DNA from: a virus
Virus record (IMG/VR): IMGVR_UViG_3300002835_000706
Span: 1-31,625 of that record
Length of the DNA stretch: 31,625 nt
Direction: 5' to 3' (one strand)
Positions within the stretch are counted from its first letter, which is position 1; each line of letters opens with the position of its first letter. Below are positions 2,138 to 30,556 of this stretch, one piece after another. The position numbers and the translations under genes were made by a program. The notes under the pieces are model-generated. The model saw only the letters and a program-made list of their open reading frames with translations, was not told the origin of the DNA and ran no database searches.

Positions 2138-2383
2138 GTGATTAACGTTAGAGAACTATCAGCAGAGATGATGCGCCAGCAGGCCACGATCGACGGGCTC
2201 CGTGTTGTCCGTCAATGCTTGTGGGACAACGCCCCCAGCAGTATCGAAACGGGGACCGTCTTAAAGGCCATTAACGCTGCCATCCTGAAGGCCGACGGGA
2301 AACTAAGCAAGGCACATCGGGAACTACACGCTGTTGTGGCTGAACCCCGCAAAACCGTTATTAACGAAGAAGGAGAAATCTGA
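2138..2383 (+). CDS. Small helical protein, 81 aa
   Basis: The frame is open from far upstream, inside the previous gene, but the only start with a proper Shine-Dalgarno (AACGAAAGGACC) is the GTG at 2138. The 81-aa product is predicted helical and charged, begins MINVRELSAEMMRQQ, and has no recognisable domain. A coiled-coil or small oligomeric adaptor would fit, but this is only a guess. Its stop TGA overlaps the ATG of the next gene by one base, indicating translational coupling. Function unknown. Confidence 0.7.
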   Translation: MINVRELSAEMMRQQATIDGLRVVRQCLWDNAPSSIETGTVLKAINAAILKADGKLSKAHRELHAVVAEPRKTVINEEGEI

Positions 2384-2703
2384 TGGAAAAGTTGGAAATG
2401 CTCGCTTACCTTATTGTCCGCTTCGGCTTAATGGCTTTGGTCGTTGCTGTCGGTGCTGCCATGCTTTACCCGCTGGTCAACCGTTGGAAGTGGCTTAAAG
2501 ATCCTGAACCGACGTGGGAGGATTACTGCGACGAGACCGACTGCGACGACTGTCTCACCCGTCTGTTTGACTGCGACGGCTGCGGCAACACCTACGACAT
2601 GAAAGGGTCCTGCGAATACCGAACCTATAACGAAGACGGCGATAAGCAGGACTATCTGATCTGTCAGGGCTGCTACCACGAGATCATGGACTCGTGGGCT
2701 TAA
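2383..2703 (+). CDS. Membrane-anchored zinc-ribbon-like protein
   Basis: A 106-aa protein with two parts. Residues 5-33 are a strongly hydrophobic helix, so the N-terminus probably sits in the inner membrane. The rest is acidic and cysteine-rich, with three C-x2-C pairs (within DCDDC, DCDGC and CQGC) plus extra cysteines and a histidine, consistent with a zinc ribbon facing the cytoplasm. I know no named family with this combination. The start overlaps the preceding stop (TGATG). The stop codon is immediately followed by the first hammerhead ribozyme, and the last codons can pair with sequence past its stem II. A host-takeover role at the membrane is possible but unproven. Confidence 0.75.
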   Translation: MEKLEMLAYLIVRFGLMALVVAVGAAMLYPLVNRWKWLKDPEPTWEDYCDETDCDDCLTRLFDCDGCGNTYDMKGSCEYRTYNEDGDKQDYLICQGCYHEIMDSWA

Positions 2704-2761
2704 TGTCGAAACCACCTTCGGGTGGTCCATGCAAGGTGGCTCCTTGTGTGCTGAAGAGACA
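2704..2761 (+). ncRNA. Type II hammerhead ribozyme, copy 1
   Basis: All core positions of a circularly permuted type II hammerhead are present. Stem II is TGTC 2704-2707 with GACA 2758-2761. The GAA of G12-A14 is 2708-2710. Stem III closes A2711-U2726 with CCACC/GGTGG around a TTCG tetraloop. The cleavage nucleotide is C2727. Stem I is 2728-2736 with 2742-2750 (9 bp, two G-U), and CUGAAGA (CUGANGA) is 2751-2757. GGCT 2697-2700 and AGCC 2762-2765 can extend stem II, bulging the stop codon UAA. The predicted scissile bond is 2727/2728. It ends 24 bases before the next ATG. Confidence 0.9.
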
Positions 2762-2785
2762 AGCCATTAACGAAAGGGCAATACC

Positions 2786-3094
2786 ATGAACGAGTCCGCA
2801 CTAATCCACATGATGACCGAAGAAATCCCAACCGATAACGAACGGCTCGCTGCCACAATAACGGCGAACCGTGCGCTGGCACAGTCAGGGCTGTACACGC
2901 TCAGCCATTACAACGGGAACCACGCGTGCTGGGACCTTAATCCTGACGCAGATATGCTGGCGATCTTCCCGCCGCCTGTGCTGGCCATGATTGTCGAATT
3001 CGCTACCCATGTCGTCACGACAAGGTGCGAGGAAAACATCCTCGCCGTTAGCGGCAACAACGAGGAGATGATCTTCCACGCTTCGATGGATTAA
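2786..3094 (+). CDS. Hypothetical protein, 102 aa
   Basis: An acidic protein of 102 residues with start ATG preceded by TTAACGAAAGGGC. It has no membrane segment and only two cysteines (C48, C80). The middle (residues 36-70) contains aromatic residues and an F-P-P-P turn; the C-terminal half is likely helical. I recognise no family. The gene lies between hammerhead copies 1 and 2: its start is 24 bases downstream of the first, and its TAA stop directly abuts stem II of the second. Its mRNA would therefore be cut out on both sides. Function unknown. Confidence 0.75.
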   Translation: MNESALIHMMTEEIPTDNERLAATITANRALAQSGLYTLSHYNGNHACWDLNPDADMLAIFPPPVLAMIVEFATHVVTTRCEENILAVSGNNEEMIFHASMD

Positions 3095-3151
3095 TGTCGA
3101 AACCCCATTAATGGGGTCCGTGCGACCTAGCCCCCGCACGCTGATGAGACA
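3095..3151 (+). ncRNA. Type II hammerhead ribozyme, copy 2
   Basis: Stem II is TGTC 3095-3098 with GACA 3148-3151. GAA is 3099-3101. Stem III runs from the A3102-U3117 closing pair through CCCCA/TGGGG with loop TTAA. The cleavage nucleotide is C3118. Stem I is CGTGCG 3119-3124 with CGCACG 3135-3140 around ACCTAGCCCC. The core CUGAUGA is 3141-3147. The structure follows the stop codon TAA (3092-3094) with no spacer and ends 23 bases before the next ATG. The stem I pairs are swapped relative to copy 3, so pairing is conserved while sequence changes. Confidence 0.93.
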
Positions 3152-3174
3152 GGCTTAATGAAAGGACATTAACA

Positions 3175-3423
3175 ATGGCAACCACAATCGAATTCACCGA
3201 GTCCGATGCCCAGAAAATGCTTTACATCCTCAACCAACAAATTGCTTTCCTCCGCCCCGAAATAACCAAGGTTAAAGGGCGCTTTGTGGAGGCGGAAATT
3301 CTCGGTGGAGAACCTCACCAGTATTTCGTTGACCGTCTGCCCGTATTGATGGACGAGATGGAAGACGCTTTGCACCTTCGGTCAGTAATCCATTCAGCGG
3401 TATATTCAACCGTTAATGATTAG
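3175..3423 (+). CDS. Hypothetical protein, 82 aa, paralogue of next gene
   Basis: An 82-aa helical protein with start ATG after ATGAAAGGACA. It opens with a short beta-like stretch (TTIEFTESDAQKMLYIL) followed by helices rich in charged residues. The opening resembles that of the 90-aa protein at 3501 (VELKLTVDEAKKIAEIL), and both end in a helical stretch around an H/Q-rich segment, so I infer two paralogues from gene-plus-ribozyme duplication. The gene lies between hammerhead copies 2 and 3. Its stop TAG contributes its G to stem II of copy 3. Function unknown; a coiled-coil interaction protein is plausible. Confidence 0.75.
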   Translation: MATTIEFTESDAQKMLYILNQQIAFLRPEITKVKGRFVEAEILGGEPHQYFVDRLPVLMDEMEDALHLRSVIHSAVYSTVND

Positions 3424-3476
3424 TCGAAACCCCCGTTGGGGGTCCGCACGATCTAGCCTCCGTGCGCTGATGAGAC
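3423..3476 (+). ncRNA. Type II hammerhead ribozyme, copy 3
   Basis: Stem II is GTC 3423-3425 with GAC 3474-3476. GAA is 3426-3428. Stem III closes A3429-U3443 with CCCCC/GGGGG and loop GTT. The cleavage nucleotide is C3444. Stem I is CGCACG 3445-3450 with CGTGCG 3461-3466 around ATCTAGCCTC. The core CUGAUGA is 3467-3473. The stop codon of the upstream gene (3421-3423) overlaps stem II by one base. The stem I loop matches copy 2 at eight of ten positions. It ends 24 bases before the next ATG. Confidence 0.92.
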
Positions 3477-3500
3477 AGGCTAAACAGAAAGGCATTAATA

Positions 3501-3773
3501 ATGGAAACCTTTAACGTGGAATTGAAGTTGACTGTGGACGAGGCCAAGAAGATTGCTGAGATACTGGAGTTTAAGGTCGGTGTCGAACAGGGCTTGGTCG
3601 ATTACCACAAGAAGCGTTTGGCTGAGGCTGATGACGGCCACGGTAACCCTAAAGAGTTACACAAGACGCTCATTAACGAGCATCGTGGCAGCCACAAGCA
3701 GATCAGTTACCTTCTCGGTGTCCTTAATATCGCCATTAAGGACGCTCAGGAACGCACCAGCGAACCGTTCTGA
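3501..3773 (+). CDS. Hypothetical protein, 90 aa, paralogue of previous gene
   Basis: A 90-aa charged, helical protein with start ATG after CAGAAAGGCATTAATA. The pattern VELKLTVDEAKKIAEIL at its start and the C-terminal helix (residues 60-85) resemble the 82-aa protein at 3175. It is the last gene of the ribozyme operon and is followed by a 200-base gene-free gap with strong hairpins. No domain is recognised. Its product and that of the neighbouring paralogue may form a complex, but this is inference. Confidence 0.75.
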   Translation: METFNVELKLTVDEAKKIAEILEFKVGVEQGLVDYHKKRLAEADDGHGNPKELHKTLINEHRGSHKQISYLLGVLNIAIKDAQERTSEPF

Positions 3774-3780
3774 AATGGCA

Positions 3781-3880
3781 GCGGTCCCGTCAAGGAAAGG
3801 ACAACCTGACGGGACCGCGCACGCCCCGCTACACCAACCAGCACAAGCGGGGTAGCCATACCGTACAAGGGTAAACCCTT
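3781..3880 (+). terminator. Three hairpins ending the ribozyme operon
   Basis: The 200-base gap 3774-3973 holds no gene. Its first half has three inverted repeats: a perfect 12-bp stem (3781-3792 with 3807-3818), a 7-bp stem (3824-3830 with 3846-3852) and a 5-bp stem (3867-3871 with 3876-3880) followed by a short T-containing stretch. I read these as the operon's terminator region. The loop of the first hairpin contains a Shine-Dalgarno-like GGAAAGGAC with no start codon after it. Confidence 0.55.
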
Positions 3881-3908: not shown

Positions 3909-3937
3909 TTGACAGTACCGCCGTACTAGATTACGAT
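3909..3937 (+). promoter_or_regulatory. Promoter P2, sigma-A/sigma-70 type
   Basis: TTGACA at 3909-3914, a 17-base spacer and TACGAT at 3932-3937 form a near-ideal promoter. It lies 37 bases upstream of the ATG at 3974 and after the terminator hairpins of the previous operon, so it should start the transcript carrying the 76-aa protein and the DUF932 gene. Confidence 0.78.
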
Positions 3938-3973: not shown

Positions 3974-4204
3974 ATGAAGAAAACACCCAACCCCAACCTT
4001 GTCGAAGACGCACTAATGCTCTCGGCAGCACAAGAAGCGATGTGCGACGCTTTGGATCTCATCGAAGACGATGATCTCCGCCTTCAACTTGTCGATGCTT
4101 GTGCGGGTTATTGCGCTGCGTTCATTATCGGTGCCACTCATGCAATCCAGCATGACGCTGACCAGTTCATTAACGAAACGATCAATAACGTTTCAATGAA
4201 CTGA
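3974..4204 (+). CDS. Hypothetical protein, 76 aa
   Basis: A small acidic helical protein with the strongest Shine-Dalgarno of the early region (AGGAGG, 7 bases before ATG) and promoter P2 just upstream, so it is probably abundant early in infection. It contains four alanine-rich helices and three cysteines (C24, C44, C47). There is no clear membrane helix, though residues 41-56 are moderately hydrophobic. I recognise no family. It is separated from the DUF932 gene by a 19-bp imperfect hairpin. Function unknown. Confidence 0.75.
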   Translation: MKKTPNPNLVEDALMLSAAQEAMCDALDLIEDDDLRLQLVDACAGYCAAFIIGATHAIQHDADQFINETINNVSMN

Positions 4205-8105: not shown

Positions 8106-8660
8106 ATGACTACGGTCACCGAAACACCCAACATCAGTCCCACGGGAACAGTCTCGTTCTCGCGTAAAGTTTCTGTCCGTCCCTATGAATCTGCCGAAGC
8201 ATCTATCTTCGTGCAGTTCGACATTCCCACCGAAGGTGAGCCTGACGAGCAGCGAGCGCAGTTGCTTGCTAATGCCCGTGCAGCCATGTTCACCGCCAAG
8301 GCCCTTGTGCTGGAAGAACTCGGCTTGGAATTTGCCGTATCCGAAACAGGGATCATCCACGAAATCGTTCAGAAGAACTTTGGTCGTGTCACCGAAGTCG
8401 TTATTGATGAACAACCGTTCCCCGAAGCCCCTCAGCAGGTTGCCATTAATCAGGCACCTGTAACAGCAGGAGAGGTCGGGGCCAACCCGCCATACGCTGC
8501 CGACACGCAGGACAAGCAGGAGCGTATTGAGAACAAGAAGTGGGCTGTGGCTCGCATCGCTACTAATCCTGAGGATTGGTGGGATAACCGCAACTCAAAG
8601 CGAAATCCAAAAGCACCCGATTACAAGCACAAGCAAAACGGCATGGGTGTCTGGCTTTAA
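8106..8660 (+). CDS. Possible ssDNA-binding protein, 184 aa
   Basis: The start ATG follows TTAGGAG. Residues 14-100 look like a beta-plus-helix nucleic-acid-binding domain (VSFSRKVSVRPYESAEASIF then FDIPTEG), followed by a proline-rich linker. The C-terminal block around D-W-W-D-N-R-N-S-K-R-N-P-K-A-P-D-Y-K-H-K, ending in G-V-W-L, resembles a conserved tail I have seen in phage proteins encoded near helicases and annotated as ssDNA-binding. Position between nuclease and helicase genes supports a replication role. It is monocistronic, with a palindrome across its stop codon (8652-8665) and a strong terminator after. Function is inferred, not shown. Confidence 0.6.
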   Translation: MTTVTETPNISPTGTVSFSRKVSVRPYESAEASIFVQFDIPTEGEPDEQRAQLLANARAAMFTAKALVLEELGLEFAVSETGIIHEIVQKNFGRVTEVVIDEQPFPEAPQQVAINQAPVTAGEVGANPPYAADTQDKQERIENKKWAVARIATNPEDWWDNRNSKRNPKAPDYKHKQNGMGVWL

Positions 8661-15872: not shown

Positions 15873-18800
15873 TAGTTGTTTCCATTCCCCAGCGCAGCAG
15901 CAATAGCAGCCCAATCCACCTTTTTATTGCCCGACACATTCGTAAACGGAGAATTAGCAGGCAGTCCACCCTTAGGTTGCAGCAACGTCAAGTAAGGACG
16001 CTTATCCGTTGGCGTTGGCTTAGAGGCCAACGCAATTTGCTTCTCCCAATAGTCATAACCACCGTAGCCAAGTTCCTTAAGGCTCTCAGCCATCTTGTCA
16101 ATCTTCTTTTGCCTAGCCCGAATCTCACCATATTTGTCAGATTCAGTATTAGCCCGAAGCGACAAACCAAACAGGGTGTTTAGCACCGTAACAGGCAAAC
16201 GATCTTGATAACGGGGTTCGTCAGGAAGCAAACGCCTTGCACGACCCATCAATGGGAAGAACTGCTCAAGGGCATACAAATGCTTATCCTGAGCCATGAG
16301 TTTGCCGTTAATGTCACGTTCAGCGAAACCAAGGGCTTCCATAGCAACACCTAAACCAACCTTCTCATAGGTGTCTGGGATCTGCACATACCCAAGGAAC
16401 GGTGCAGATTTACCAAAGTACAACTTGTTATCCATCACCATTTCAACAGGGGTTTTAAGAATAGGGTTGATCTGTCCAAGCAGATCGTTGAGGTTGCCCA
16501 AAACATTAAGGTCTTTAATGGGCATATCTGGCATCAAATAAGTTTGACCACCAGGAAGCGCAAATGGCAAACGAATATTCATTCGATCACTCATCCACGC
16601 AGGCATCAAATCCTCAGGGAGCGACGCAGCCTCAATGGAATCCTTTGTCTGGACGTACCTTGCGTACGCCTTAGGGTTACGGAAAACCATTTCCATCTGG
16701 GTTGGCAGGTTCTTACGGAACCAAGTGTAGAAAGGCGAAATGCGCTTCATAACTACGTTTTCAAATTGGTTCAAATCGTTGTAATTAAAATGCGCTTTAA
16801 ATACAAGATCATAGATGCCTTCAAGCCCACGACCATTCTCAGCAGCGTGCATTGCAGCAGCACCACGCAAAGTACGTTCCATATCACGGTTAACGTTATA
16901 AGTCGCACGGTTAATAGGCGTATCAGCAAGACGAGTCAAAACCCCACGCTTCTGACCAGAACCAGTAACAGCCTTCAAATCAGCAAGAGTGTTCTCAACC
17001 TGACCACCCAATTCCAAAACACCAGAATTGTGGACCATAGAATAAGCATCAGGCAATTCCCTAAGTGCTTCTTCAACAGACTGCCCAGAAGCAATAGCCT
17101 TACGGAACTGACGGTCAGCCCTTAAGAAATTTTCCATACTTCCTGGAGAAACATCAAACAGGTAATTCATAAAAATACCTGAATAACCGTTTCGTGCAAT
17201 AAACCCAGGAGTTGCAACAGCCCAAGACTTAAACACTCGTGTCATGCGATCAAAGTATTTAAGGAAACTAGGCAATTCATTTGGTGTGGTTATCTTAGTA
17301 ACCAACGCCATAGCATCAGCAATATCCATAGGAGACTGAGAAGACCTAGAAATCTCAGCAAAACCCTTACGAACAATATAACGAACAGCCTCATCAGCCT
17401 TTGGACCCTTAAGCCATACCATATATTCGTAATCATCAGACGCTTTACCAAGACGAGTCAACGCCTTTTCCTCAGCAACCATCGCAATCTCAAGCGCACG
17501 CTGACCACGATTCAACTCGTCCAAACGCATACGAGCAACATCATCAAACTCACTAACCTTACGGTTAAGATTGTTCTGATACAACGACTGCTTCTGTTTC
17601 TCAATACGATCAATGCGCTGAGAGAAACCCTTAATGTTGGCATCAATCTCATCCAACTGAGCCAACTTGTCCGTCTGATCCTTAGTTAAACGTTTATTGG
17701 CCTTACCAACCTTAGTGATCTCAGCACGCAAATCATTAATCTTCTGCTGAGTCTTAGCCGACATACGCTTGGCCTTAGTGCCAGTAGCCGCAGTTCCAGG
17801 CTCCCCGCCCATAGCCTTAGCAGCAGCCTGCTTCGTTTGAGAAGCCTTAGTCATAGTCTTCATCGCAGCAGGATTATCAGCATTTGCGGCAGCAGCAGTC
17901 ATAGCAGCAGGATCATTGTCAGTCGCTTTAGCCATATCGGCCATAGCCTTTTTCTGAGCAGGCTCCATGCCCAACTCGCGAGTAACCTGCTTAATTACAT
18001 CGTCAGTACTCTGGCTATCAATCGAACCGACAAGACGGATAACTTGCTCTTCAGTCAGACCGCTTGTGGTCGAAGCGAAACGTGCAACCTGAGCCGAATC
18101 CTCAGACAACTGAACAGCCTGAACCGTACGCAACGAAGCCCGTTCGTAACGATTCTTAAACTCAAGGAACCTTGGATTAAGATTAGGATTCTCTCCAAAG
18201 TTGTTGGCGAATGATGCTGACTCTTTTTCAGCATCATCCAAAGCCTTAGTCATGCGGCCAAACGCAACCTGTTCCTCCATCGCTGCCTCAGCAGCGTTGG
18301 CAGCACGAACATCAAGGTCAGCCACAAGTTTCTCAGTCTTAGCCAAACCTTCAAGTTCATCGTTTACAGCACGCCAATCAGACTTTGGCTCTCCACCCTT
18401 AAGTTCAGTACTGCGCGCACGATTTCTAGCCCGACGCATCTTAACGGTCTTATCGTTAATAGCAGTTTGAAGTTCACCACGCATAGCCTGAGTGTCATCA
18501 ACATATTGCATCGTTGCTGTTTCCCACTCAGGGGTATAACCACCCTTAGGTGGTTCAGCAGTCCACGAACGTCCAGCAGAACCCAACCTAGGGTCAGCAG
18601 ACATACGGGCCGCAGCATCCTGCGCCCGCAAATTATCCATGTATTCGTAAAAGCCCTTATTCTCCGCAGCCTGCATATCACGCAAAGCACCACGCATCTG
18701 CCACTCTGCAACAGCCATCTGTTCAGGAGAAGCCCCAATGTCACCCAAAGTTTTATGAGCGTCCCTTGCAGCCTCATACGCATCCTGACGGGCAATAACC

Positions 18801-23624: not shown

Positions 23625-26291
23625 TTATGTCTTGATAATGTAGTAAGTGAGGATATAGGGTTGCATCACACTGGTCGATGAATTACCGCCAGCGTTGGCG
23701 TTAACCGTGACTCCCACGGAGGCTGTGCCAACAGGCCCACCTGTATCGCCGTAAACCCTGGTGTAATGGTTCATGGTCAGGGGACCAAACGCGCCGTTAT
23801 AGACGGAAACGGGACCAAGAATGTAACTGGTGATTGCCGCAGGACCACGACCGCTAGGTCGAACACCCCCCGCCTCATAGCCAATAAGGCCAGAATTGCT
23901 GTTTGCAGCACCAACCGCTGCTGCAAGGTTTCCTTCTTGATGTGTGTGTCCTGAAGTGGCAACTGCACCATTAGAGATCGTTGTGCCGTGTGTGTGACCT
24001 ACGAGTTGGGCAGCATTAAAACTTTCTGTACCACCCGTTCCACCTAAAGTGTTTGTTGCGGACAGACGGCCCGCATCGGTTCCACCCATGTTGTCCACCG
24101 CAACTGGAGTTCGTCCTCGCAAATCAGGCAAATAAAAATGGGTGAGCGTTGAAGTCCCGTAAGTGTTGCCGATCAAGGTCCACAGATCAGGAAACGATGA
24201 TTTCAGTTGGGGTGACCCGTCACAAAGCAACCATCCCGCAGGCGCTGTAGCGGCAGCATACGCAACCAAAGCACCCGTAGGAGTACCAACACCCGTATCA
24301 CCCTTGGGGATCGTAAAGTTAAATGTGGCCGCAGACGATGTACCGCTGTTTGAAACTGATGCCGACGTTCCTGCCGCACCCGTTGTCGTAGTCCCCACGG
24401 CGATAGTCGCTGCTGTACCCGCAGGACCTGTAGCGCCTGTAGCACCAATAACGCCTTGTGGGCCTGTTGCCCCAACAGCACCAGTCGCACCGACTGGACC
24501 CGTAGCACCTGTTAAACCAGTAGGACCTGTTGGTCCAACAGAACCCGTGTCTCCTTTTTCACCAACAATTGATGTTGTCCAAGCGGAGAAGGTTCCTCCG
24601 CCCGCTTCCATGTCTATGGTGATCGTTATGGAAGAAGTGGTTCGGGCAGTAATCGCTCCCTCAAAATAACTGAGAGTTCCAGTCCCATAAACCCTGATAC
24701 GACTACCAATCTGGTAGGCGTGATCTGTTGCCCCGCTTGGGAGTGTAATTGAAAGAGTTCTTGCTCCCATTGCGCTTGGGATTGAATAGGTTCCAACAAC
24801 AGTTACGTTATAACCAGCACCGTTTGTACCATTAGTTCCTGATGGCCCTGCTGGACCTGTAGCACCGTCAACGCCATTAGTGCCTGCTACTCCTGGAATT
24901 CCAGGCGCTCCCGCAGCACCAGTAGGGCCAAGTTGCGTATACATAACCTGAGTTGCCGTCAAAATAATTGACGGCACAGCAGGAGAAACAGGGGATGTTC
25001 CAGCAGGAAGCGCCTCAACCTTGAGTTGGGTGCTGGTTCCGCTCCAATAAACCTGAACAGCATCACCAGCAGTTGCAGGAGCGACATAGTTGATAGTTAT
25101 AACTTGACGATTCGGATCAGAAGAACCTTTCCTAGGTTGCAAATCTATTTCTGTGGCAGAATCAGGGTAATCCGTTCCATTCAACTTTAACCAAAAAATT
25201 GCTTTCTCAACAGAGTTCGCCAAATTAGTGATCTGTATGGAAAAGGTCAGACTGTAAACACCAGCATACGCAAAGGTGACTTCATCACCATTTGCAATAC
25301 TGACACCATTTCCACCAGCAGTTGCACCAATCGCAACAACTTGAGCAGTTGACGTTGACGCTAGGGACTGGTCGGTCATGTCGTAGAAAGACCCCCAGTA
25401 GCCAAGAGCGCCACCTGCGCCCGTGTTACCCGTGACTCCCTGAATGCCCTGTGGACCTGTAGGACCGACATTTCCTGTGTTGCCCGTGGCCCCCGTAGCG
25501 CCAACTAGCCCCTGTGGGCCTGTTGGCCCCATTGCTCCTGTAGCCCCTACTGAGCCTGTGGCTCCAACCAAACCTTGAGGTCCAGTCGGACCCATAGCGC
25601 CCGTCGCACCAATACTGCCAGTTGCTCCCACAGCCCCCTGAGGGCCTGTAGGACCGATTGCACCTGTAATACCCTGCAAACCCTGAGGACCAGTCGCTCC
25701 AACGGCTCCTGTGGCCCCTACGGGACCTGTGGGGCCGACTGCTCCAAGATCACCGTTGCGAGTAAAAACCATATAGTTAATAGCATTGTTAAAATGAATT
25801 CCGCCAGAGTTCACCCAAGTAACAGGGATTGTGTAGTAGCCCGTATTTGCTGTAACTGTTCCGTTCACATAATAAGTACGAAACCCTTGGCTGCTTACAA
25901 GTTGAATATAGCCTTTGATGGTAGAAGTTGAGTCATCAAATACGTTGTACCAGTTAGTTTGTGAAAGCCCAAGTAGGTCAAGATTACTGATATAGATTTG
26001 GGTTACAGCCGAAGAAGTCGAACTGTTGAGGCGAAAGTATCCCGATCCAGGATCAGCATTAGTTGTTGTGGTGCTGTATCTGTAACTGACATTTCCTGAT
26101 GGACCAGCAGGGCCTGTGGGACCGTCTGCACCCGTCAAACCTGTTAGCCCTTGCGGGCCTGTTGGTCCTGCGGGTCCTGTTGGACCAGAACTGATAGTTC
26201 CACTCCAGTCGTGAATAGACGTGAAGATTTTCCGCAGCGTTTTAGAGTCTGCGGGTTCTACTGCTGGAATGGGGTTCTGCCATTCAGCCAT
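23625..26291 (-). CDS. Collagen-like tail fibre with tail-collar domain
   Basis: An 888-aa tail-fibre-type protein. A conserved-looking N-terminus (1-34) probably attaches to the tail. Four collagen-like G-X-Y blocks follow (about 36-67, 183-300, 455-492 and 577-627), separated by beta-rich modules: 68-182; 300-455, a jelly-roll or C1q-like sandwich; and 495-570. The C-terminus is a phage tail-collar domain with A-P-x-G-W-L-L-C-D-G (680-689) and [10 protein letters not shown] (720-729), then a Gly/His-rich tip. It is likely the host-recognition fibre or spike; collagen repeats give a rigid trimeric shaft. The DNA repeats inside could recombine, varying shaft length. Confidence 0.88.
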
Positions 26292-26950
26292 TAAAAACCA
26301 ATTGCAATATAACTAACACGGACTGTTTGGCTAACAGCACGATTAACGGTCCAACCAAAACCAAATGGGTTAACAACATCTGAGGTAAAACAACGCACGC
26401 TAAAACCAGAAGCAGTTCTACCAAAAACCGAGATAAACTGTGCAGGAACACCAGCATCACCGCTTGTTACAACGACGGTAGTGCATTCGGTTGGAAATGC
26501 ACCATCAACAAAATTAACTGTTGCTTGGCCCAATCCGTCAGTAGTTACAACAGCATCACGAGCCTTAATGATCTGACCCTGATTAGCCATCCTTGGGCGG
26601 AACGTCAGCGGTGTAACCGCCGAGTCATCCACATACTGTTTCCGAGTAAATTGATTAGCAGTAGTCGGATTTGTGGCAGGACCACTAGGGATACCAGTAA
26701 AGTTCGTTGAGCCGTCAATCTTTACACGCAAATTGTCTGCGTTATCAACATACTGTTTCCTAGCAAACTGATTAGAACTAGTAGGATCAGTTCCAGGACC
26801 AGACGGAATAACCGTAAACGCCTTACTAGCGTCACGGACAATGACCTCACCGTTAATGTAATTAACAAGGTCATTAAAGTTTTGGTTTGCTTCAGCCGCC
26901 AAAATTGGCGCACCAGGAACAAAATTATAAGTTTTAGAAACAACAGTCAT
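26291..26950 (-). CDS. Short tail fibre with duplicated repeat, 219 aa
   Basis: A 219-aa protein with a strong Shine-Dalgarno (TAGGAGG) overlapping the previous stop (ATGA). Residues 46-70 and 84-108 are two copies of a repeat: FT-x-IPSGP-x-T-x-PT-x-x-NQF-x-RKQYVD. The C-terminal 80 residues are beta-rich, ending RVSYIAIGF. Such internal repeats and C-terminal trimerisation domains are typical of tail fibres. It lies between the nozzle-like gene and the collagen fibre, so it may be an adaptor or a short fibre. Each repeat ends in QYVD, a fibre-shaft signature. Confidence 0.72.
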
Positions 26951-28596
26951 CGTACCCTCCTAGGCACAAACTTAAGAATAAGAGCATCAACACCCCAAAA
27001 GACGGGTGCTTGAGGTTGACCTGGGACCGCTGTGGAAAGAACCTTTCCACCAACCTTCAATGACACCGATCTTGCAACACCAAGATTGGCTCCACGATCC
27101 ACATAACCGTAGTTACCTTGTTCTTTCGCCCACAAAGCCGTGTCCCATACAACACCAGCACCATTCCAAACACTAGCAGCAGCAGAAGTTTCATTTCCCG
27201 CTGAACGAAAAATAAAGTTTTTAACAGAAACACTAGAGTCATAATCGCTGTAAGAAACAACAGGGAGATCATAAGGCTGATCGACCTGCATTACTGCTTC
27301 AGTTCGTCGCCAACGCTTTTTAATTGCTGGCTCCCCAAGGTCAACCCATTTTGTACGGTAGTAACCATCAATAGGTGTTGCGCCTGAAGTATCGTTAAGG
27401 TAATCGTAATACTGTCCCTGAACATCAAGACGATATACCCTGTTTGTGTTGTGAAGATACCCTAAATAGTCTTCGTTGCGATGACCACGAGAATACGGGC
27501 CAGCCTGCAACGAATACTTTGTCCAAGAACCACCTTGCTTTAAACGTGGGTCAAGAACAAAAGTGTAAGCCCGTGGAACACTAGGCTGATCGCTCCAAGG
27601 AACGCTAACCCACAAACGGTTTTCAACCCAACCCAAATCAACATTATCTATTGCTGATGATGGGATGGAACCATCTCGCATTGCAGGCCAAATTTGTTCA
27701 AAAATCCATGTTACACTACTGCCGTTATAAACGTTCAAACCTGTTTGATGGTCAAAGAAGAACAGACCAGCAGGAGTGGCAATAGCCCCTTGGTGAGAAA
27801 CAGCACCAACGGTATTGGAAATGTTTACAACAGAAAATGATTCACCAGAATAACCGTATACAGCATAAACAGAGTCACGTTTAAATACAATTAGTTGATC
27901 CCCAAAAGGAATAATTGCTGTGATGTAATCAGAGTCTTTGCCATCATCAATATCAATGTAATCTTCGCTACGCCAATTCTCACCAGAGTTATCAAACGTA
28001 TTAGCCCAAGACCAACGAACACGATTAGGGTAATAAGTACCAGATTCCCAAGTTCCAGCAACCCACATATAACCGCTATGAATAGCCATATGATCTGCAC
28101 GAGGAATATTTCCAGATGTGGGCGTAGTGGTGTCGTTAAAATTTGATGTAAGGATAGTGGCGTTTGCGCCACCATCCCACTTAACAATATCACGATCACC
28201 TCTAGCCCAATAACAAACATTATTAAACGTCACAGCACAAACATCAGAACCAGTCGTAGTACCAAGATCATTAGTAGCAACGCCAGAAACAAGTCTAGTC
28301 AAAGTGGTCCATGTACTACCAGTACCATAACGAATACCAGTACCAACCTGAACCATAGTGTAAACGGTTCCAGTATCGTTATAAGTCCAAATAGCATTTG
28401 GAGCAGCAGACAAAGCAGTATTAGAAAAAGGATAAACACCACGTCGAACCTGAAAGCCACCACGTCGATCAATATCGACGTTCAACAAATCAGGCGACTC
28501 GTTATCAGCCAACCTGAAAGTATCGGCAACCAGATTTAAACCGCCCGTGAAATCACGCAACGTATGAAGTTGAGTACGCTTAGGAGTGGATCGCAT
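26947..28596 (-). CDS. Tail nozzle/tubular protein B-like, 549 aa
   Basis: A beta-rich 549-aa protein with start overlapping the previous stop (TGATG). It begins with F-T-G-G-L-N-L and a P-D-L-L-N-V-D-I segment like those of podovirus tail proteins (T7 gp12-like, P22 gp10-like), followed by repeated W-x-x-N/G beta-propeller-like blades (about 60-360). No enzymatic motif is visible. Its position directly after the head-tail adaptor in the portal-scaffold-capsid-adaptor-nozzle order is the main support for a tail-tube nozzle role; sequence identity to a named family is not established. Confidence 0.72.
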   Translation of the reverse strand: MRSTPKRTQLHTLRDFTGGLNLVADTFRLADNESPDLLNVDIDRRGGFQVRRGVYPFSNTALSAAPNAIWTYNDTGTVYTMVQVGTGIRYGTGSTWTTLTRLVSGVATNDLGTTTGSDVCAVTFNNVCYWARGDRDIVKWDGGANATILTSNFNDTTTPTSGNIPRADHMAIHSGYMWVAGTWESGTYYPNRVRWSWANTFDNSGENWRSEDYIDIDDGKDSDYITAIIPFGDQLIVFKRDSVYAVYGYSGESFSVVNISNTVGAVSHQGAIATPAGLFFFDHQTGLNVYNGSSVTWIFEQIWPAMRDGSIPSSAIDNVDLGWVENRLWVSVPWSDQPSVPRAYTFVLDPRLKQGGSWTKYSLQAGPYSRGHRNEDYLGYLHNTNRVYRLDVQGQYYDYLNDTSGATPIDGYYRTKWVDLGEPAIKKRWRRTEAVMQVDQPYDLPVVSYSDYDSSVSVKNFIFRSAGNETSAAASVWNGAGVVWDTALWAKEQGNYGYVDRGANLGVARSVSLKVGGKVLSTAVPGQPQAPVFWGVDALILKFVPRRVR

Positions 28597-29270
28597 CAGT
28601 CAAACGGGTAATTCAAACGGTCTTGCTGGCGAACCCGTGGGCCACCACCAAGAACAAGAGGATACGGACCAGGAGCATCGCCGTACTGCTTCTTCAACAA
28701 ATCCATCTCAGCGTTAAACGCATTAATAAACTGGCCTGCCATCTCAGGATCTTCCTGTTGCAAATACGCCATACCCAAAATGTATAGACGCACAGCATCA
28801 TGGAAATCATCAGGGAAATCAGGTTCAGCACCCGAACCATTAGCAACCCAATCTTCAACCTTGCGGTAACCACGAAGGTAAAGAACTTCTCCACCAGCAG
28901 GCGTTGGATACAAACTCAGGTTGTCGCCCCAAAAGTTAAAGAACTCAACGGAACCGTTATTCGTCTGATACGGCAAATATGCCGCTTCAGCCTCATCACG
29001 ACCCAGATAACGCAACCGAGCATCATTGCGAACAATAGACGTAATCTCATCCACATCAGGAGAGAACGCAGACAACGGATAGTCTTGCTGGTCGTTAACA
29101 GTAGTTAACGTCCAAGACGTTTCAAAGAACGGCCAACGCTTACGAGTCCGAGCAATCTTAATCGTAGCGTCCCTAGCCCAAACATCCAAAAGATCATCTG
29201 GGACTTCAGATTCGTCCAAATCAAGATGCTGTCGCACATAGCGACGTAACTGATCTAAGTTATAAGCCAT
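28596..29270 (-). CDS. Head-tail adaptor (T7 gp11-like), 224 aa
   Basis: A 224-aa protein with an N-terminal helical domain (MAYNLDQLRRYVRQHLDLDE, about 1-60), a central beta segment with W-P-F-F-E-T-S-W-T-L, and a C-terminal helix-rich part (about 150-200), the layout of podovirus adaptor proteins that ring the portal. It follows the capsid gene and precedes the nozzle-like gene, exactly as expected. The start overlaps the upstream stop (TAATG). Family assignment is by size, position and helical outline rather than a signature motif. Confidence 0.75.
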   Translation of the reverse strand: MAYNLDQLRRYVRQHLDLDESEVPDDLLDVWARDATIKIARTRKRWPFFETSWTLTTVNDQQDYPLSAFSPDVDEITSIVRNDARLRYLGRDEAEAAYLPYQTNNGSVEFFNFWGDNLSLYPTPAGGEVLYLRGYRKVEDWVANGSGAEPDFPDDFHDAVRLYILGMAYLQQEDPEMAGQFINAFNAEMDLLKKQYGDAPGPYPLVLGGGPRVRQQDRLNYPFD

Positions 29271-29524
29271 TAGATTTCACCACGAGAACGAAGATGACCG
29301 ACACACCAATCAGTACCCCGTGCAGGACGAGCCTTGCAAGGTTCACCAACCTTAGTCATGCCAGAACACCCAATATGGGTATCAACAATAGTTTCAGTCG
29401 GCAAAGCAGCACCAGAACCAATAGCAGGAACAGCAGAACTCTGATGTTGAATCCTAGAAGAATCCGTAACACCACCCGACGCTGGAACAGCATTCGCTCC
29501 GTAACTAATTGCAATCTGCCTCAA
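29270..29524 (-). CDS. Small zinc-motif protein beside the capsid gene
   Basis: An 84-aa protein whose C-terminal half carries C-S-G-M-T-K-V-G-E-P-C, then G-T-D-W-C-V-G-H, a C-x9-C-x10-C-x2-H zinc-binding motif common in short actinophage proteins. The N-terminal half is polar and disordered-looking. It starts with TTG (29524) after AAGGGG, an uncommon start that is the only one in this frame with a good Shine-Dalgarno. Its gene lies between the capsid terminator and the adaptor. A head-associated or regulatory role is possible. Confidence 0.65.
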   Translation of the reverse strand: MRQIAISYGANAVPASGGVTDSSRIQHQSSAVPAIGSGAALPTETIVDTHIGCSGMTKVGEPCKARPARGTDWCVGHLRSRGEI

Positions 29525-29547
29525 AGAAACCCCTTAAAATAGGAACA

Positions 29548-29571
29548 GGGCGGGGGCCGAAACCCCCGCCC
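29548..29571 (-). terminator. Terminator after the capsid gene
   Basis: A perfect 9-bp G/C stem (29548-29556 with 29563-29571) with a six-base loop, read on the minus strand just past the capsid stop and followed by TGTTCCTATTTT. A second 7-bp stem (29585-29591 with 29596-29602) overlaps the capsid stop, where TGA and TAA are adjacent. Partial termination here would make capsid mRNA more abundant than downstream tail mRNA, as in many phages. Confidence 0.72.
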
Positions 29572-29599
29572 CATTACAAATGCTTGATAAAGATTTTTA

Positions 29600-30556
29600 T
29601 CAGGCAGTCTTGGCGGTGAGAACACCCTGACGAGCGCGGTTGCTGATCGTCAGTTCGCCGTAGCACAGGATCTGTGCGTAACGTGCATCTTGGTTGTTCG
29701 GACGAACAAACGGAGTTGGCTTGAACCAGTTATCCGAGTGACCGACAAGACGGATGTACTTGGTGTTAAGGAAGTACATATCGCCAGCCGTGACATAGTT
29801 GTCATAAACAATAGGCGCACCCTTGAACAGAAGGTTCTGGAAACCACCATCAGCGGTCTTAGCGTCCATGAAACGCTCTTGTGGCTGAAGAAGGTCTTCA
29901 TACTTCTCAAACAAAGCACGGGTCGTGAGAATCACGTTCGGCTGATCGTTACCAGCAGAAACCGTGTTGTAAGCCGTACGCATCTGGGCGAGCGTAAGCG
30001 CACCAGCAGACGTGTTCTTGTGACCAGGAGCCCACCAAGTATCAGTAGCCTGATTGATGCCACCAATGTTGGTTGACGTGCTGTCTTTCACAAGGGCTTC
30101 AAGGCCAAGCCAATCCTTGCCAGAGTTACCAGTAGCGTTAGAGGTAAGACCCGACGAAATAAACATCTGGTCAAACTTTTCGGTAATGGTTTCTTCCGCT
30201 TGGAAGGTCTTTGCCTCAAGAAGATCAATGATCTGCTCTTCTGAGTTGTTCTGTGCTTCTTCGATACCAGAAATGGTGATCGACGCAGCATACTGCTTCC
30301 AGTTGAACTCAGCAGAGGTGATGCCAGTCTGCGGAGTAATGTTAATGAGGTCATACGCTGAGTATGACGCAGCAGTACCGTTCTGTCCGTAAAGAAGCGG
30401 GAGGACGATCTTAGAACCACCAGAGATGGTACGGACCTGACCAGCCTGCTTCAGAAAGTAAACAAACGGACGTGCCGAAAACACGTTATCAACCAACTTA
30501 GGCATGTGGTTCGCCAAAGTGGTTGAAAGGATTGTATCGTAATTAGGGTTAGGCAT
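29600..30556 (-). CDS. Major capsid protein, HK97-like fold
   Basis: A 318-aa major capsid protein. An N-arm-like start (MPNPNYDTILSTTLANHMPKL), a long helical segment around 100-130 (E-E-A-Q-N-N-S-E-E-Q-I-I-D-L-L) that fits the HK97 spine helix, and a beta-rich C-terminus ending Y-G-E-L-T-I-S-N-R-A-R-Q-G-V support the call. It follows the scaffold gene, has a good Shine-Dalgarno (AAGGATAAG), and is followed by a terminator. Size and gene order match podoviruses. No protease gene is seen nearby, so maturation probably relies on the scaffold alone. Confidence 0.85.
   Translation of the reverse strand: MPNPNYDTILSTTLANHMPKLVDNVFSARPFVYFLKQAGQVRTISGGSKIVLPLLYGQNGTAASYSAYDLINITPQTGITSAEFNWKQYAASITISGIEEAQNNSEEQIIDLLEAKTFQAEETITEKFDQMFISSGLTSNATGNSGKDWLGLEALVKDSTSTNIGGINQATDTWWAPGHKNTSAGALTLAQMRTAYNTVSAGNDQPNVILTTRALFEKYEDLLQPQERFMDAKTADGGFQNLLFKGAPIVYDNYVTAGDMYFLNTKYIRLVGHSDNWFKPTPFVRPNNQDARYAQILCYGELTISNRARQGVLTAKTA

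Follow-up and report, generated by a model that had tools for sequence, protein, structure and literature searches.

The DNA analyzed here (the window) is the whole 31,625-base stretch of the IMG/VR virus record IMGVR_UViG_3300002835_000706, which derives from an uncultured bacterial virus, a podovirus-like metagenomic phage. Four genes, A to D, lie in a row on its + strand, and each of the three gaps between them holds one type II hammerhead ribozyme (Table 1). No matches to the genes A to D were obtained in PHROGs or Pfam, and genes B and D had none in the phage collection either. The products of genes C and D share 24% identity over 45 aa (E 0.012), a similarity equaled by 7–24 of 1000 shuffles. 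Judging by this similarity, C and D may be distant paralogues, which would hint that a gene was duplicated together with its ribozyme. From the + strand replication module, we infer that the operon is an early one.

Table 1. Genes and predicted ribozyme elements of the hammerhead-punctuated row in the window.
Feature	Position	Strand	Details
Gene A	2383..2703	+	106 aa; no family match; stop TAA at 2701-2703, one base ahead of hammerhead 1
Hammerhead 1 (type II)	2705..2766	+	Stem II 2705-2707/2758-2760; GAA 2708-2710; stem III 2711-2726; stem I 2728-2736/2742-2750; CUGAAGA 2751-2757; predicted cut after C2727; pseudoknot 2737-2741/2762-2766; found by RF02276, pattern, fold and pseudoknot
Gene B	2786..3094	+	102 aa; DNA 98.4% identical in G001, where it follows gene C
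Hammerhead 2 (type II)	3096..3155	+	Stem II 3096-3098/3148-3150; stem III 3102-3117; stem I 3119-3124/3135-3140; CUGAUGA 3141-3147; predicted cut after C3118; pseudoknot 3129-3132/3152-3155
Gene C	3175..3423	+	82 aa; weak similarity to D; stop TAG at 3421-3423, G3423 shared with stem II of hammerhead 3
Hammerhead 3 (type II)	3423..3482	+	Stem II 3423-3425/3474-3476; stem III 3429-3443; stem I 3445-3450/3461-3466; CUGAUGA 3467-3473; predicted cut after C3444; pseudoknot 3454-3459/3477-3482
Gene D	3501..3773	+	90 aa; ends the ribozyme-punctuated row

The promoter and terminator scans of the window performed no better than shuffles. It should be noted that an inverted repeat, CGGTCCCGTCA...TGACGGGACCG, lies 3' of gene D (3776–3830), and that a near-consensus sigma-70 promoter, TTGACA-17-TACGAT (3909–3937), precedes a 76-aa ORF at 3974; neither is above the shuffle background. 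The two elements possibly mark where the ribozyme operon ends and where the next transcription unit starts.

The initial annotation had placed a type II hammerhead in each of the gaps 2704–2761, 3095–3151, and 3423–3476, and every coordinate was found to be right. The strict core pattern GTCGAAAC-N-GTC-N-CTGANGAGAC matched the window three times (2705–2760, 3096–3150, and 3423–3476) and was absent from 100 dinucleotide shuffles. The comparison with the Rfam Hammerhead_II model (RF02276), also suggested in that annotation, matched all three copies over their full length, but only hammerhead 3 passed the curated gathering cutoff of 37 bits (38.9 bits at 3422–3484, E 1.1e-4 over the window). Hammerheads 1 and 2 scored below the threshold in a 3.5-kb search, with 31.0 bits at 2704–2768 (E 0.0014) and 30.4 bits at 3095–3158 (E 0.002), respectively. 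All three copies carry the core GAA, UH, and CUGANGA as well as the A-U pair closing stem III; the CUGAAGA of hammerhead 1 deviates at a position that is N in the consensus. The fold and the alignment gave the type II order, with stem II (GUC/GAC) open and stems I and III closed by loops. The predicted cut sites follow from the sequence as the annotation had put them, and its stem I exchange, CGTGCG/CGCACG in copy 2 versus CGCACG/CGTGCG in copy 3, indeed keeps the pairing by two double compensatory changes. No other hammerheads were found within the window: a 13.8-bit match at 8192 and the loose-pattern matches at 16611, 17433, and 29840 look like chance.

Minimum-energy folding reproduced stems I to III of every hammerhead, with modest z-scores (-1.9, -1.4, and -1.3 for hammerheads 1, 2, and 3) and with competing folds in hammerhead 2, where the frequency of the minimum-energy structure is 0.07. 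A fourth helix, which the initial annotation lacked, was found in each copy as a pseudoknot between loop I and the 3' tail: UGGCU/AGCCA (5–7 bp) in hammerhead 1, AGCC/GGCU (4 bp, the weakest) in hammerhead 2, and UAGCCU/AGGCUA (6 bp) in hammerhead 3. In hammerhead 1, the same tail bases are claimed by an extension of stem II and by the pseudoknot. The loops pair with their own tails over 5.2 bp, compared with 4.0 bp for mismatched tails. Among 37 diverged relatives of equal length, the whole structure was paired in 93.8% of cells versus 68.7% when shuffled and 32–37% when slid, although the figures for stems I to III are biased, since these stems served to pick the relatives. Meanwhile, the pseudoknot, which was not a selection criterion, was paired in 80% of cells and showed changes on both sides at all six pairs.

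Inactive relics, or structured spacers that merely resemble hammerheads, might also score below the threshold in two copies and give modest folding z-scores. We nevertheless regard this explanation as very improbable. The core is invariant in each of the six copies from the window and its nearest relative G001 (IMG/VR contig IMGVR_UViG_3300042898_000689, 38,184 bases), the only close relative found, while the stems vary in a compensatory manner, and the shuffles produced no match at all.

Rows of this kind have been described before. Clustered type II hammerheads flank single prophage genes, a triple set of Agrobacterium tumefaciens is active in vitro and in E. coli, the loop I/tail pseudoknot is typical of the type, and processing into single-gene mRNAs was already proposed (Perreault et al. 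2011, PMC3088659). The window shares with those clusters the architecture, the core, the pseudoknot, and the presence of several copies on one strand around single small phage genes. It differs from them in belonging to a podovirus-like metagenomic phage, in its four genes without assigned function, in the GUC/GAC stem II, and in a gene order altered at the ribozymes relative to the nearest relative; the text of Perreault et al. mentions neither stop codons nor recombination. A later review (de la Pena et al. 2017, PMC6155905) likewise describes prokaryotic hammerheads that lie close together, flank small non-conserved ORFs, and are linked to phages, and it lists their role in phages as an open question. 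These systems share with the window the close spacing, the small ORFs without assigned function, and the phage tie; stop-codon register and changes of gene order do not figure in the passages on them. Given these two publications, the tandem hammerheads that head the description of the locus are known in kind.

To see how widespread such rows are, we surveyed public DNA. The first set, an IMG/VR pattern scan covering at least 120 loci, gave at least 197 structure-checked copies in at least 114 loci (G001 and the window included). At least 42 of the loci had two or more copies, and the longest row among the matches listed had eight. A second scan, aimed at a GGC/GCC stem II, found 187 copies spread over 106 loci, with up to seven per locus, and a scan of cultured and binned genomes gave 53 copies in 35 loci. 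The same finder returned none in the reversed-sequence controls of the three scans. Altogether, at least about 420 distinct copies are present in public phage and bacterial DNA, and Rfam confirms 7 to 9 matches per row in three phage records. These counts and confirmed rows indicate that rows of type II hammerheads are common in phage operons. The genome of the methanotrophic gill symbiont of Bathymodiolus japonicus (L325, L286, L297, L300, and L309) holds at least 14 type II matches, six of them inside 2.8 kb. Among 33 records sharing the capsid gene, many of them fragments, a search run without a control found no hammerheads at E 0.01, which weakly suggests that the array is not part of the capsid lineage.

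These results show that the hammerhead row is real, that it was correctly described by the initial annotation, and that it is known in kind. The identity of the elements as type II hammerheads, one per gap, is supported by the sequence, Rfam, covariation, and precedent, and the same lines of evidence favor the proposed outcome, in which the mRNA would be cut into single-gene pieces. The statement that three copies in series make the locus unusual does not hold, as clustered and triple sets were published in 2011 (PMC3088659) and rows of five to eight were found here. What is new and worth following up is an exchange of genes B and C with changeovers at the ribozymes, together with a stop-codon register and a distance of ~57 nt from cut to start across ~410 copies. 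Neither the exchange at the ribozymes nor the register was found in the open literature searched, a scope that leaves out most subscription papers.

In the window, the stop codons upstream of the three hammerheads (2701–2703, 3092–3094, and 3421–3423) lie within 1 nt of stem II, ending one base ahead of it in copies 1 and 2 and sharing its G in copy 3. For 413 non-redundant copies, the gene upstream could be identified and the register analyzed. The stop fell at -6 to +1 of stem II in 54% of them (55% when averaged over 164 sequence clusters) and further in than +1 in only 4%. The stops peaked at the offset that lets the G of TAG double as the first G of stem II; of the 67 stops found there, 65 were TAG. 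In the first set, 146 of 194 stops lay in an interval where random nearby positions give 7.6%. In the relatives, ~57 nt separate the predicted cut from the next start; the six copies in the window and G001 all have 56–58 nt.

This register raises a possible refinement of the self-cleavage explanation, namely that translation gates the cutting: with the stop flush with stem II, a terminating ribosome would sit over the ribozyme's 5' half and hold back cutting until its departure. Speculatively, a ribosome covering ~12–15 nt past the stop would occupy the GAAA strand and so delay cutting. The position of the stops in the window, the flush half of the 413 relatives with their TAG peak and the mere 4% further in, and the excess over random positions in the first set all favor such gating. 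Plain gene packing yields a similar appearance; however, the flush fraction hardly depends on the distance to the next start (55% for a near start, 51% for a far one), an argument against packing alone. About half of the copies are not flush, and the literature searched yielded neither support nor an experiment, so we hold this refinement to be rather doubtful.

Like the window, G001 contains genes A, B, C, and D with three type II hammerheads, one per gap. Its gene order is A-C-B-D instead of A-B-C-D, and its middle ribozyme has a different stem III. The ribozyme 5' half after gene A is identical at 26 of 27 positions in the two phages regardless of the gene downstream, while the 3' halves before genes B and D are 100% identical regardless of the gene upstream. 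The halves show where the joints lie: the 5' half next to A stayed with A, the 3' halves went along with B and C, and D has kept the entire third ribozyme. Between the two phages, each of the three ribozyme junctions is rearranged, and five neighboring non-ribozyme junctions are kept. Mosaic joints seen within genes C and D show that recombination is not limited to the ribozymes. An assembly chimera appears improbable as the cause of the swap: the junctions within each contig have at most 18 identical bases in common, and no more than 24 are common to both contigs at the A junction, lengths that are short compared with the usual assembly word sizes.

Other differences between the two contigs were noted as well. 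The window lacks ~6.5 kb that in G001 (24024–30522) lie between the counterparts of the window end and the window start; G001 looks complete, since ~124 bp are repeated at both of its ends. The large breaks are the ribozyme row, the missing end, and the collagen-like tail fiber gene (23626–26254 of the window), which is rearranged relative to G001.

The swap could also mean that the ribozymes serve mainly as recombination linkers, their conserved core repeats being short homologies for the exchange of single-gene cassettes, with RNA cutting secondary or decayed. The exchanged gene order, the rearranged ribozyme junctions beside kept plain ones, and the gene-dependent 3' halves fit this explanation, as does locus L155, which holds one extra unit of gene plus hammerhead compared with L067. 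In the first set, breaks were seen at 87% of hammerhead junctions and at 60% of the plain junctions on the same strand within 1.5 kb. A second, independent set showed no such excess (56% of hammerhead versus 63% of plain junctions; bootstrap interval -0.14 to 0.15), and because of this a general recombination hot spot at hammerhead junctions is not asserted. DNA recombination, moreover, would need no compensatory pairing in the cores or the pseudoknot, and the joints within genes C and D also tell against this explanation. Overall, we consider it unlikely that recombination is the main role. Separately, a hammerhead lies between two conserved genes in L059 (2854–2928) and is missing at the same junction in L069 (5891–5897), so that, at the level of the sequence, the ribozyme alone has been cleanly gained or lost.

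Self-cleavage therefore remains the explanation that we prefer, and we consider it highly likely that the gaps encode type II hammerheads which would cut co-transcriptionally to give monocistronic mRNAs with 5'-OH ends. As the + strand operon is transcribed, each hammerhead would fold into stems I to III and the pseudoknot, and each RNA would then cut its own strand after C2727, C3118, and C3444. The RNA of the upstream gene would then end in a stem III hairpin followed by a 2',3'-cyclic phosphate, and that of the downstream gene would begin with a 5'-OH ahead of the stem I hairpin. Type II is the only type in which the two stems adjacent to the cut are both closed hairpins, and both new ends would therefore be capped by structure. 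In this way, the shared message would be split into mRNAs of roughly one gene each (A, B, C, and D), the downstream ones with a leader of 56–58 nt. A 5'-OH resists decay that requires a 5' monophosphate, and such mRNA ends should evade this route of decay.

The same linker of stop, ribozyme, Shine-Dalgarno sequence, and start is found at every junction, so that genes could switch their order and yet stay expressed. The exchange of B and C in G001, where all three ribozymes persist despite the rearrangement, suggests just such a freedom of order with expression kept. A less likely reading goes further: type II hammerheads in phage operons may be a standard linker of the stop-cut-start kind. They would adjoin the stop codon directly, letting the terminating ribosome set the time of cutting, would lie ~57 nt ahead of the following start, and would be exchangeable, which would allow single genes to be reordered or inserted between ribozymes with independent expression kept. 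The two related phages have four genes and three ribozymes in common and differ by an exchange of two genes at the ribozymes, which makes them a clean natural experiment. Together, the swap and the register turn the vague idea of mRNA trimming into two that can be tested at the bench, namely cutting timed by termination and gene interchangeability made by ribozymes.
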